Assembly: GCA_903919455.1 (NCBI GenBank)
Contig: CAIXIJ010000115.1
Coordinates: forward strand, 45,098 to 109,097
Length of the DNA: 64,000 bases
Source: an uncultured Acidimicrobiaceae bacterium
GTDB taxonomy: Bacteria; Actinomycetota; Acidimicrobiia; Acidimicrobiales; Ilumatobacteraceae
Reading direction: 5' to 3'
The number at the start of each line of letters is the position of its first letter. Position 1 is the stretch's first letter. Below the pieces are notes generated by a model. The model saw nothing but the letters and a program-made list of their open reading frames with translations, ran no database searches and was not told where the DNA came from. Positions 41,767 through 49,833 of the stretch are shown one piece after another. Made by a program: the position numbers and the translations under genes.

Positions 41767-42759
41767 TCAGAGGCCCGAGAGTTGAACCGCGAGGATGGAG
41801 ACCAACGCCACCAACGCCCAACTTCCCAGTCCGAGCATCAGCGGCTTGCCGCCGACCGCCCGCAGTTTGCGGAGGTCGACGTTGCTGCCGAGACCCACGA
41901 GACCCATACCCAGCAGGATGGTCTCGGCGTCCTTGATACGAGCAAGCGTGGTCACAGGCAGCACGCCGGTGGATCGAATGGCCACCGCCACGAGGAACAG
42001 CACGATGAACAGCGGCAGGATCGGCGGCCGCTTGGCTCCCGCCACCGCTGCCTCACCCATGCGCTTGCGCGAACCGATGGCCACAAAGGCCAACAACGGA
42101 GCCAGCATGGCAACGCGAGTGAGCTTCACGATCACCGCGACAGCGAGTGCCTTCGGCCCGTGCGTTGAGGCCGCCGCCACCACCTGGCCCACATCGTGCA
42201 CCGACGCCCCCACCCATGCACCGAACTGGCCGGTTCCCATTCCGAGCAGCGAGCCAAGCGGGGGCAGCACCACGATGGCGAGGGTGCCGCAGAGGGTGAC
42301 GAGAGCAATGGAGTACGCCACCTCCTCCTCGTCGGCACCGGCAAACGGTTCCACCGCAGCAATAGCGGAGGCGCCGCAGATGCTGTAACCGGTGGCCATC
42401 AACAACCCGAGCGAGCGGCTGAGCCCGAGACGTTTTGCCAGCCACTGCGTGCCGAAGAAGGTGGCGATCACCACCGCGACCACTGCAACAAGGGCCCGCG
42501 GGCCGAGCTTGCCGAGTTCGGACAGCGAGAGCCGGAAGCCGAGCAGCACGATGCCCGCTCTCAGGATCTTCTTGGCCGAGAACTTCAAACCCGGCTTGAA
42601 CGACTCCTCGATGCGACCGAACGTGGCCCCGAGCATCCCGAAGAACACCGAGATCACATGTGGGGAGATCACATCGACTCGTTGGTGCACCACGAAGGCC
42701 ACCACCGAGACGGCCAACGCGATGCCGAGTCCGGGGAGCAACTCCTTGACCCGGGTCAC
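41767..42759 (-). CDS. YeiH-family putative anion (sulfate) exporter
   Basis: 330 residues with about ten transmembrane helices, including the family segments SPHVISVFFGMLGATFG, ILRAGIVLLGFRLS and TGYSICGASAIAA. The family is annotated as sulfate or organic-anion exporters, mostly without biochemical proof. GTG start at 42759, overlapping the hutI stop by 4 nt (GTGA) and preceded by GAAGGAGG, so it is cotranslated with hutI. In this setting it could export an intermediate or end-product of histidine breakdown; that is conjecture. Confidence 0.87.
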   Translation of the reverse strand: MTRVKELLPGLGIALAVSVVAFVVHQRVDVISPHVISVFFGMLGATFGRIEESFKPGLKFSAKKILRAGIVLLGFRLSLSELGKLGPRALVAVVAVVIATFFGTQWLAKRLGLSRSLGLLMATGYSICGASAIAAVEPFAGADEEEVAYSIALVTLCGTLAIVVLPPLGSLLGMGTGQFGAWVGASVHDVGQVVAAASTHGPKALAVAVIVKLTRVAMLAPLLAFVAIGSRKRMGEAAVAGAKRPPILPLFIVLFLVAVAIRSTGVLPVTTLARIKDAETILLGMGLVGLGSNVDLRKLRAVGGKPLMLGLGSWALVALVSILAVQLSGL

Positions 42760-43910
42760 TTGCCTCCTTCGAAGACCCGCCGTACCAACGGCACACCGGG
42801 GCGGTACACGAGGTGCGTGTACGACGGCGCGTCGAGCATGCACAGGTCGGCGCGCATCCCCGGCTTCACCGCACCGATGTCGCTGCGGCGAAGCGCCTTC
42901 GCGCCACCGGCCGTGGCCGCAAGCACAGCCTCCTCCAGCGTCATGTGCATGTCGCGCACCGCGATGGCGATACAGAACGACATGGAAGTTGTGTAACTGC
43001 TTCCGGGGTTGCAGTTCGTGGCGATCGCCACCGAAGCGCCTGCATCGATCACTCGACGTGCGTCGGGATACGGCTGCCTCGTGCTGAAGTCGGCCGCAGG
43101 CAGGAAGGTTGCCACGGTGTCGCTGCCAGCCAGGGCAGCAATGTCGGCGTCGCTGAGGTAGGTGCAGTGATCCGCAGATGCGCAGCCCATCTCGACGGCC
43201 AACTGCACCCCGGGGCCATGCCCGAGTTGGTTGGCGTGCAGACGAAGCCCCAGCCCGGCATCGCGGCCGGCTTGCAGTACGGCTCGCGACTGGTCGGCAT
43301 CGAACGCGCCCACCTCGCAGAAACAGTCGATCCAGCGACTGTACGGCAGCGCGGCCTGCAGCATGTCGGTGCAGACATGGTGGACGTAGTCGTCGGAGCG
43401 ACCCTCGAACTCCGCTGGCACCACGTGAGCGCCCAGGAACGTTGTGTCGGCGGTGAACCCTCTTCCGATCTCCAGGCAACGCGCCTCGTTGGCCACGTCG
43501 AGGCCGTAGCCCGACTTGATCTCCACGGTGGTGATGCCAGCGCGCCGAGCCTCTGCTCGGCGCAGTTCGGTGAGCGATTGCAACTCCGACGTGGTGGCGC
43601 CGCGGGTGGCTTCGACGGACACACGAATGCCACCTGCCTCATACGCCCGACCCGCCATACGCGCTGCGAACTCGTCGCTGCGGTCGCCGGCGAAGACCAG
43701 ATGCGTGTGGCTGTCCACGAAACCGGGCAACACACAACGACCCTCCGCGTCGATCCGCCTGTCGGCCAACTGCCCTGCCGCCCCGACCGACACGATCTGG
43801 TCGGCCTGCCACACCACCGACGCATTCCGTCGGATGCCGAGGATGCCTTCACCCACGGTGGGATCGTTCGTAACAAGCAGCCCGATGTTGTCGAGCACGG
43901 TCGTAGTCAT
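42756..43910 (-). CDS. hutI: Imidazolonepropionase
   Basis: Amidohydrolase that opens 4-imidazolone-5-propionate to N-formimidoyl-glutamate, the third step of histidine breakdown. 384 residues; metal-binding HTH in PGFVDSHTHLVFAG, EIKSGYGLD and the late NPGSSYTTSM. The ATG at 43910 overlaps the hutF stop by 4 nt (ATGA). Confidence 0.96.
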   Translation of the reverse strand: MTTTVLDNIGLLVTNDPTVGEGILGIRRNASVVWQADQIVSVGAAGQLADRRIDAEGRCVLPGFVDSHTHLVFAGDRSDEFAARMAGRAYEAGGIRVSVEATRGATTSELQSLTELRRAEARRAGITTVEIKSGYGLDVANEARCLEIGRGFTADTTFLGAHVVPAEFEGRSDDYVHHVCTDMLQAALPYSRWIDCFCEVGAFDADQSRAVLQAGRDAGLGLRLHANQLGHGPGVQLAVEMGCASADHCTYLSDADIAALAGSDTVATFLPAADFSTRQPYPDARRVIDAGASVAIATNCNPGSSYTTSMSFCIAIAVRDMHMTLEEAVLAATAGGAKALRRSDIGAVKPGMRADLCMLDAPSYTHLVYRPGVPLVRRVFEGGK

Positions 43911-48275: not shown

Positions 48276-49833
48276 CAGAGAACCTCCAACGTTCCAATTG
48301 CGAGTTCGACGGCGTGCAGTACTGAGCCGTCGGCGAGTGTCTGTTCCGCCGCACGAAGATCCGGCGAGAGCCAACGATCGGGCCCGGGCCCGGCCACGCG
48401 TTCGCGCAGCACAGCCAATGCCGCCCCGGTTCCAGCGGCTGGCTGCAGCGGCCGCGCAAGTCGATGGCGGCAGCGGCGCACACCAGTTCCACCGCCAGCA
48501 CACGCCGCAGGTTGTCGACGGCCTTGCGCAGCTTGCGGGCCGCGGCCCAGCCATTCGAGACGTGGTCTTCCTGCATGGCGCTGGTGGGAAGGCTGTCGGT
48601 GGACGATGGCACGGCCAACCGCTTGGCCTCCATGGCCATCGCGGCCTGCGTGTAGTGAGCGATCATCATCCCACTGTTCACGCCGGCATCGGGCGACAGG
48701 AATGGCGGCAAACCATGGCTGCGAGCCTTGTCGAGCATGCGGTCGGTGCGCCGTTCGGCAATGGCGCACAACTCAGCAGCAGCAATGGCCAGGAAGTCGC
48801 AGACGAAGCCGACCGGGGCGCCGTGGAAGTTGCCGCAGCTTTCCACCCTGCCATCGAGGAGGATCATCGGATTGTCGATGGCAGCGTCGAGTTCGCGCTC
48901 GGCGATGGTGCGAGCGTGAGCCATCGTGTCGAGGGCAGCACCGTGCACCTGCGGGGTGCAGCGCAGCGAGTAGGCGTCCTGCACGCGGGTGTCGTCCTCT
49001 CGGTGGCTGGCCACGATGGCCGAGCCTGCCAGCAAACGGGTGAGGTTTCTTGCGCTGACGGCCTGGCCCACCTGCGGGCGCAACGCCTGCAACTCCTCGG
49101 CGAACGCTCGGTCGGTACCCAGAAGGCCCTCCACCGACATCGCCGCGGTGACGTCGGCAATACGAGCCAACTGCGACAGGTCGTGCAACGCCATACAGAG
49201 CATGCCCAGGATGCCATCGGTGCCATTGATGAGCGCCAACCCCTCCTTCGCACGCAGTGCAACAGGGCTCAGCCCGTTGCGGGCAAACGCCTCAGAAGTG
49301 GGCTCGACGCCGCCGTCGGTAGTGAACACTTCGCCCTCACCGATGAGCGACAGGGCGCAGTGGCTGAGCGGCGCCAGATCGCCGCTGGCGCCCAGCGAAC
49401 CGTGCTCGCGCACCACGGGTGTGACGCCACTGTTCAATAGGGCGAGTTGCAGTTCGACCAACTCAGGCCGCGCACCCGAGTATCCCATCGACAGGCTGCG
49501 CGCCCGCAGCAGCAGCAGTGCGCGCACCACCTCGGGTTCCACGACGTCGCCCATGCCGGTGGCGTGCGAACGCACCAACGCCACCTGTAACTCGGCGGTT
49601 CGATCGGCCGGAATGACAGTGCTGGCCAGCGAACCGAACCCGGTGGTGACGCCGTACACGGATTGGTCGCTCTCGACGAAGCCATCCACAAGCGCAGCGC
49701 TACGTTCCATGGCCGAACGCGCCTCCTCACCGAGCGCCGCACCAGCACCGTGGCGAGCCACTGCCACCACGTCGGCGATGGTGAGACCACGGCCATTCAC
49801 GAGCACGGTCCCTGGGTCGACGGCAGACTGCAT
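48275..49833 (-). pseudogene. hutH: Histidine ammonia-lyase, broken by a single-base deletion
   Basis: First enzyme of histidine breakdown (histidine to urocanate plus ammonia). From the ATG at 49833 the frame carries GASGDLAPLSH (the Ala-Ser-Gly MIO cofactor triad), SVYGVTTGFGS and the late SSTDSLPTSAMQEDH, then leaves frame just after IDLRG. The expected continuation (PLQPAAGTGAALAVLRERV to LEVL) lies in another frame and ends at 48275, where its stop is coupled to hutU. The span is 1559 nt, one short of a multiple of three, so a C is missing from GGCCGC at 48448-48453. Either hutH is inactive or this is a sequencing error. Confidence 0.82.

Follow-up and report, generated by a model that had tools for sequence, protein, structure and literature searches.

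A peptide-deformylase paralogue in actinobacterial histidine-degradation operons is a predicted N-formylglutamate deformylase

Histidine degradation (hut) can reach glutamate by different routes. Formimidoylglutamate deiminase (HutF) produces N-formylglutamate, the sole formyl amide expected in the pathway, which the FGase type of HutG (PF05013; EC 3.5.1.68) splits into glutamate and formate. The formimidoylglutamase type of HutG (TIGR01227, arginase family) likewise ends at glutamate, in a one-step route that bypasses HutF. Here, we describe another arrangement, found in a 64,000-nucleotide stretch of DNA from an uncultured Acidimicrobiaceae bacterium (contig CAIXIJ010000115.1; the whole stretch is called the window). 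In its hut operon, ordered hutH-hutU-phyH-def-hutF-hutI, the gene in front of hutF is def, a member of the peptide-deformylase (PDF) family. The PDF fold is known as that of a protein-processing enzyme and as an antibiotic target.

In most actinobacteria with HutF, the next step has no known enzyme: a search of 80 of the 92 HutF genomes gave FGase in 11, never near hutF. A group of M20 proteins (COG0624) was earlier predicted to be an alternative N-formylglutamate deformylase, but the one protein tested, from Streptomyces avermitilis, was inactive, Table 3 of PMC3223725 giving no deformylase activity for it. The Def protein of the operon compares with these systems as follows. With FGase it has in common the predicted reaction, the pathway step and the partnership with HutF, but the two belong to separate families (PF05013 for FGase, PF01327 for Def). 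Unlike the formimidoylglutamase route, the route proposed here passes through HutF. The M20/COG0624 proteins of actinobacterial hut loci resemble Def in being encoded in hutF loci and in the step predicted for them, but are of yet another family, PF01546.

The def gene of the operon and its predicted role

The def gene (45242..45817, minus strand) starts with the ATG at 45817, a longer open reading frame (ORF) with a start at 45913 having been rejected, and encodes a protein of 191 residues. Its sole Pfam match is PF01327 (152.5 bits vs. a cut-off of 22.8), and it also passes TIGR00079 (121.1 vs. 103.95). The cut-offs given here are the curated ones for the HutH, HutU, Def, HutF and HutI profiles and the Pfam cut-off for PhyH. 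The neighbouring hutF (43907..45241, minus strand) is identified by NF006681 (628.5 bits vs. 362) and TIGR02022 (466.9 vs. 413).

Judged from sequence comparison, the operon Def is probably an N-formylglutamate deformylase, performing the HutG step and converting the HutF product into glutamate and formate. This is the most economical mechanism. The original prediction had likewise read def as possibly recruited to take the formyl group off N-formylglutamate, and the sequence data support that reading: no hutG was found, a second def exists and the linkage is conserved. In a search of the open-licence PubMed Central, no paper joining N-formylglutamate and peptide deformylase was found.

The operon def is a paralogue of the def that lies beside fmt in the same genome. 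In the proposed mechanism, its product would apply the metal-hydrolase chemistry of PDFs to free N-formyl-L-glutamate, cleaving the formyl amide of this compound. A smaller and more polar S1' wall (Ala48, Gly140, Thr141) may make room for the two carboxylates of this substrate, which could pair with the invariant loop Arg71-Tyr-Pro-Tyr-Lys75-Pro. It is also somewhat favoured that the whole PDF clade left protein maturation to serve many Actinomycetota as HutG, a dedicated small-molecule deformylase of free N-formylglutamate whose lid bears Lys/Arg and whose S1' pocket is remodelled, and was passed later to Myxococcota. Def provides a concrete 191-residue candidate for 16 of the 82 HutF genomes of our phylum sample, roughly one in five. 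If the prediction is true, the PDF fold would also serve as a catabolic enzyme; genes annotated as a second def could then carry the wrong name, and counts of def copies could mislead.

The source genome is a metagenome-assembled genome (MAG) of 3.55 Mb in 150 contigs, 97% complete. It contains two def genes, so that the operon copy is not the only one. The second, whose presence near fmt had been suggested as a check, lies directly upstream of fmt (Formyl_trans_N and Formyl_trans_C domains), which is followed by an rsmB-like gene; genes resembling priA and metK lie close by (the rsmB, priA and metK names were given by eye). This is a housekeeping neighbourhood. The operon def is without the place beside fmt, a place that is typical, not obligatory, for the family.

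The profile search for FGase (PF05013) gave no match in this genome and was positive in a Caulobacter control. A bypass by formimidoylglutamase was rejected as well: the two arginase-family genes of the genome reach only 100.7 and 83.6 bits against TIGR01227 (cut-off 229), and both pass the agmatinase model with 205.6 and 206.1 bits (cut-off 174.3). The absence of hutG, originally noticed for the window, therefore holds genome-wide for the FGase and the formimidoylglutamase types as far as profile searches reach. There is thus a gap in known enzymes at the N-formylglutamate step of this genome, M20 genes unlinked to the operon being outside the search.

Linkage of Def to HutF and other occupants of the slot

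Co-occurrence was determined in an even sample of 396 Actinomycetota genomes, calling HutF at E <= 1e-80 and this Def type at E <= 1e-35. HutF is present in 82 genomes, the Def type in 17 and both in 16 (Fisher p = 4.6e-11, a value that overstates independence, the sampled genomes being related). The 16 genomes with both are spread over seven family groups, and in all of them (16/16) the two genes lie on one contig. Fourteen have a gap of 5–68 bp between the ends of the two matches; in the remaining two, the gap is about 1.3 kb, with hutI in between. Among 73 of these HutF genomes, the Def scores fall into two groups, with 11 matches at 219–304 bits and the next best at 94; this set leaves out nine HutF genomes already covered by a class sample. 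In that class sample, true HutF was identified in 19 of 148 genomes (at least 327 bits; next score, 162). Eleven of these 19 have a def within about 1.3 kb of hutF, a twelfth is discussed below, and the other seven have defs only outside the clade or on other contigs.

To compare neighbourhoods, 84,980 genomes, one per species, were scanned with peptide patterns taken from the operon Def. The counts rest on the 80 nearest relatives kept of the 131 found, and short contigs lower the gene counts. Def shares its locus with HutF in 66 of these 80 relatives, so its position in the operon is not a matter of chance, and the comparison of related genomes that the original prediction had proposed shows a conserved linkage. 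Among the 66 loci, HutU was found in 63, HutI in 60 and HutH in 46. The other 14 comprise the locus L019 and 13 loci devoid of hut genes, which are mostly from Myxococcota according to title or lineage. Gene order varies: hutU-def-hutF is the commonest, hutF-def-hutI occurs in G039 (L218) and hutI-def in G331, G046 and G050 (L215–L217). Desertimonas flava strain SYSU D60003 (L039), the record of which carries no MAG label, also has a Def and hutF locus. Rather than a curiosity of one genome, the operon position is a trait that recurs in a separate clade of PDFs.

Another gene is often found in the slot where Def is missing. When 27 actinobacterial hutF loci were selected for the absence of Def, 16 proved to contain an M20 gene, mostly next to hutF (the M20 queries were taken from L196 and L210, themselves two of these 16). 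In comparison, M20 matches were found in none of 79 Def and HutF loci; the fetched loci differ in length, and any M20 or hut gene lying past the end of a contig would have escaped the search. In an NCBIfam scan, three M20 proteins match models for allantoate amidohydrolase or of the hydantoinase/carbamoylase type, and two match PF01546 in a Pfam scan. We take the M20 genes of these hutF loci to be of the same group as the predicted COG0624 deformylase. Def is a second, independent candidate beside M20 for the same slot. The hutF loci with neither gene are L188–L194, L200, L209, L212 and L213, some of which are cut by contig ends. A methyltransferase-like gene in the hutI-hutF gap of L188 (by eye also of L190) was considered as a further occupant; scanned in L188, it proved to be no hydrolase.

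FGase was found in three of the 22 genomes with a hut-linked Def, as weak matches in G050 and G349 and a strong one in G019, none of them near hutF. No FGase was detected in the other 19 carriers; formimidoylglutamase was searched for in the source genome alone.

The Def protein and its clade

All three active-site motifs of Def are intact, as had been claimed: G47AGIAAPQ54, E100GCLS104 and H144ELDH148. We take Cys102, His144 and His148 to be the metal ligands and Glu145 the general base, as in the family. These four residues and Glu100 do not vary among 34 sequences that were aligned by their match coordinates, and a Def frame bearing the motifs (GxGxAAxQ, EGCLS, HExDH) is present in each of the 80 relative loci. 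Among the housekeeping copies, the Def at L085:9156-9680 (minus strand) reads GCALAAPQ, with Ala replacing the second Gly of motif I.

The AlphaFold2 (AF2) model, built with the 34 sequences, has a mean predicted local distance difference test score (pLDDT) of 95.5 and shows the PDF fold. The best match in the Protein Data Bank (PDB) is 1sv2, the PDF of Leptospira interrogans, with a template modelling (TM) score of 0.97 by target length, 43–44% identity and a root-mean-square deviation of 1.0 over 171 columns. Next come the PDFs of Burkholderia and those of class I type b. Taken together, class I type b PDFs and their kin (1sv2; Pseudomonas aeruginosa 6jfc; Burkholderia ambifaria 5hgw) have TM scores of 0.93–0.97 by target length, are 37–44% identical to Def and have all three motifs in common with it; they differ in setting, the operon being on the Def side only.

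Residues were compared in a larger set, which comprised 81 Defs linked to hut, 13 unlinked ones (mostly Myxococcota) and 53 others; it was picked by motif and is thus no test of the motifs. After thinning, 48 hut-linked, 11 unlinked clade and 45 other rows remained. Thr141 is found in 48/48 hut-linked and 11/11 unlinked rows. Gly140 is found in 44/48 and 11/11, vs. Arg140 in 40/45 of the others, and Ala48 in 46/48 and 11/11, vs. Val in 33/45. Positions 140–141 are Gly-Thr in the operon Def vs. Ile-Val or Arg-Val in the class I type b PDFs and their kin. Each position of the R71-Y-P-Y-K-P76 loop is conserved in 48/48 hut-linked and 11/11 unlinked rows. Five aligned PDB relatives likewise have the RYP and the final Pro, but not Tyr74-Lys75, and position 75 is Thr or Ala in those PDFs.

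A residue signature exclusive to hut-linked Defs was sought and mostly failed, as A48, G140, T141 and RYPYKP are common to the unlinked copies. Asn99 does mark the hut-linked copies (93% vs. 1/13 of the unlinked), and T138, I182 and F185 also separate the two groups, by milder changes. In SaPDF, Val71 and Val171 are among the residues that line the S1' pocket holding Met, according to PMC5071857. By motif position, Ala48 and Thr141 would correspond to these two valines. Residues 71–76 appear to fall in the CD loop, a name used in PMC3101196 and PMC5071857 for a loop that is mobile in the Leptospira enzyme.

In a quick IQ-TREE phylogeny of 107 rows, the hut-type Defs form a clade of 61 rows (SH-aLRT 97); the def-fmt copy of the source genome falls outside it, among the remaining 46 rows. 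The unlinked copy of G247 is basal in this clade; it sits (L282:3400-3981) between a gene of the Ppx/GppA family and a gene for a pyridoxal-phosphate-dependent enzyme. The unlinked, mostly myxococcal copies nest inside hut-linked actinobacterial rows (support 92, 91 and 95), with a single hut-linked row (G039) placed among them. Read simply, this tree suggests that the hut linkage came before the Myxococcota copies, in which it was lost, although the support values are moderate and the clade's root is uncertain. Twelve genomes with unlinked copies were searched and have two to three defs each. True HutF is present in eight of them; of the other four, two have weak matches (165–186 bits) and two none.

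Several observations weigh against Def as the N-formylglutamate deformylase. Most HutF genomes (66 of 82) do without this Def, which makes its carriers a minority. Genome G105, the twelfth of the 19 mentioned above, carries a clade member away from its hutF; G247, which carries the Def type together with most of the signature, gave no HutF match at E <= 1e-80; and L019 reads hutU-phyH-def, with no hutF on its 12-kb contig. The 13 relatives outside hut, mostly Myxococcota, share the pocket changes, and seven of the eight unlinked-copy genomes with HutF have FGase too, so Def is unneeded for the hut step in those seven. The strong FGase of G019, which belongs to the same genus as the window, coexists unlinked with a hut-linked Def. 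M20 is missing from 11 of the 27 Def-less hutF loci, and no FGase was found in those genomes. Another enzyme can thus do the step in some genomes, and the absence of hutG alone proves nothing. Finally, Fo-Met-NH2 is given as the smallest efficient substrate of ordinary PDFs in PMC5071857, so that these want more than a free formyl amino acid.

Some of this would also be expected if Def were an ordinary second PDF, co-expressed with hut and still acting on nascent proteins, with an unlinked enzyme hydrolysing N-formylglutamate. The intact catalytic motifs, a fold matching Leptospira 1sv2 and class I type b PDFs (e.g., 6jfc), the existence of unlinked, mostly myxococcal copies and the 11 Def-less loci that also lack M20 all agree with this explanation. 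It is nevertheless unlikely: the Def type is linked to hutF in 16 of its 17 carriers across seven family groups, M20 is common where Def is missing and was found in no Def and HutF locus, and the changed residues map to the S1' wall that holds Met. The separation of this Def from the def-fmt copy in the tree is a further point against it, and also disfavours the alternative named in the original prediction, the capture of an ordinary def by the operon. A different substrate, such as some other compound with a formyl or formimino group from the pathway or from an added branch (e.g., with PhyH), is less probable still. The phyH gene between hutU and def would fit it, as would the PhyH matches in 13 of the 66 related loci and the frames resembling MttB in the same gap of L053 and L058, but Def keeps with hutF in the 53 loci without a PhyH match (a divergent PhyH could be missed), and HutF, by its family assignment, makes the only formyl amide expected. 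An assembly or binning artefact, or a recent chance capture in this one genome, might be suspected from the 150 contigs and from a frameshift in hutH; it has a negligible probability, being refuted by the neighbourhood conserved in 66/80 relatives, D. flava SYSU D60003 included. N-Formylglutamate deformylation by Def remains the explanation that we prefer.

Operon layout and neighbouring genes

The remaining operon genes are all on the minus strand. Histidine ammonia-lyase is encoded by hutH (48275..49833; TIGR01225, 608.6 bits vs. 539) and urocanate hydratase by hutU (46602..48275; TIGR01228, 893 vs. 375). Next comes the gene of a PhyH-family dioxygenase, between hutU and def (45814..46602; PF05721, 77.6 vs. 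22), and hutI, for imidazolonepropionase, ends the operon (42756..43922; TIGR01224, 349 vs. 298). The coordinates bear out the earlier statement that the genes overlap or abut at every junction from hutH to hutI. Position 48275 is common to the hutH stop and the hutU start, the hutU stop and the phyH ATG overlap at 46602, and the phyH stop and the def ATG overlap as ATGA (45817-45814). The TAG of def abuts the GTG of hutF, which in turn overlaps hutI by 16 nt.

The hutH gene is frameshifted near its 3' end, since the family match stops early, at residue 467–468, and the homologous C-terminus sits in another frame. The listed ORF runs out of frame and ends at 48109, and the C-terminal part (region 48275-48600, minus strand) continues to the stop at 48275. 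This could be either a real lesion or an assembly error of the MAG.

Divergent from hutH, a gene of the IclR family (49873..50589, plus strand; PF01614/PF09339) is probably the regulator of the operon; an IclR match is present in 36 of the 66 related Def and HutF loci. The 13 related loci with a PhyH match include L222, L039 and L010. Frames named MttB-like by eye lie between hutU and def in L058 (5607-7316) and L053 (2716-4257). It may be speculated that MttB-like methyltransferases feed methylated histidines, e.g., hercynine, into the hut pathway. In the window, a further MttB-like frame, also named by eye, is located at 54593-56170 (plus strand), 5 kb off the operon.

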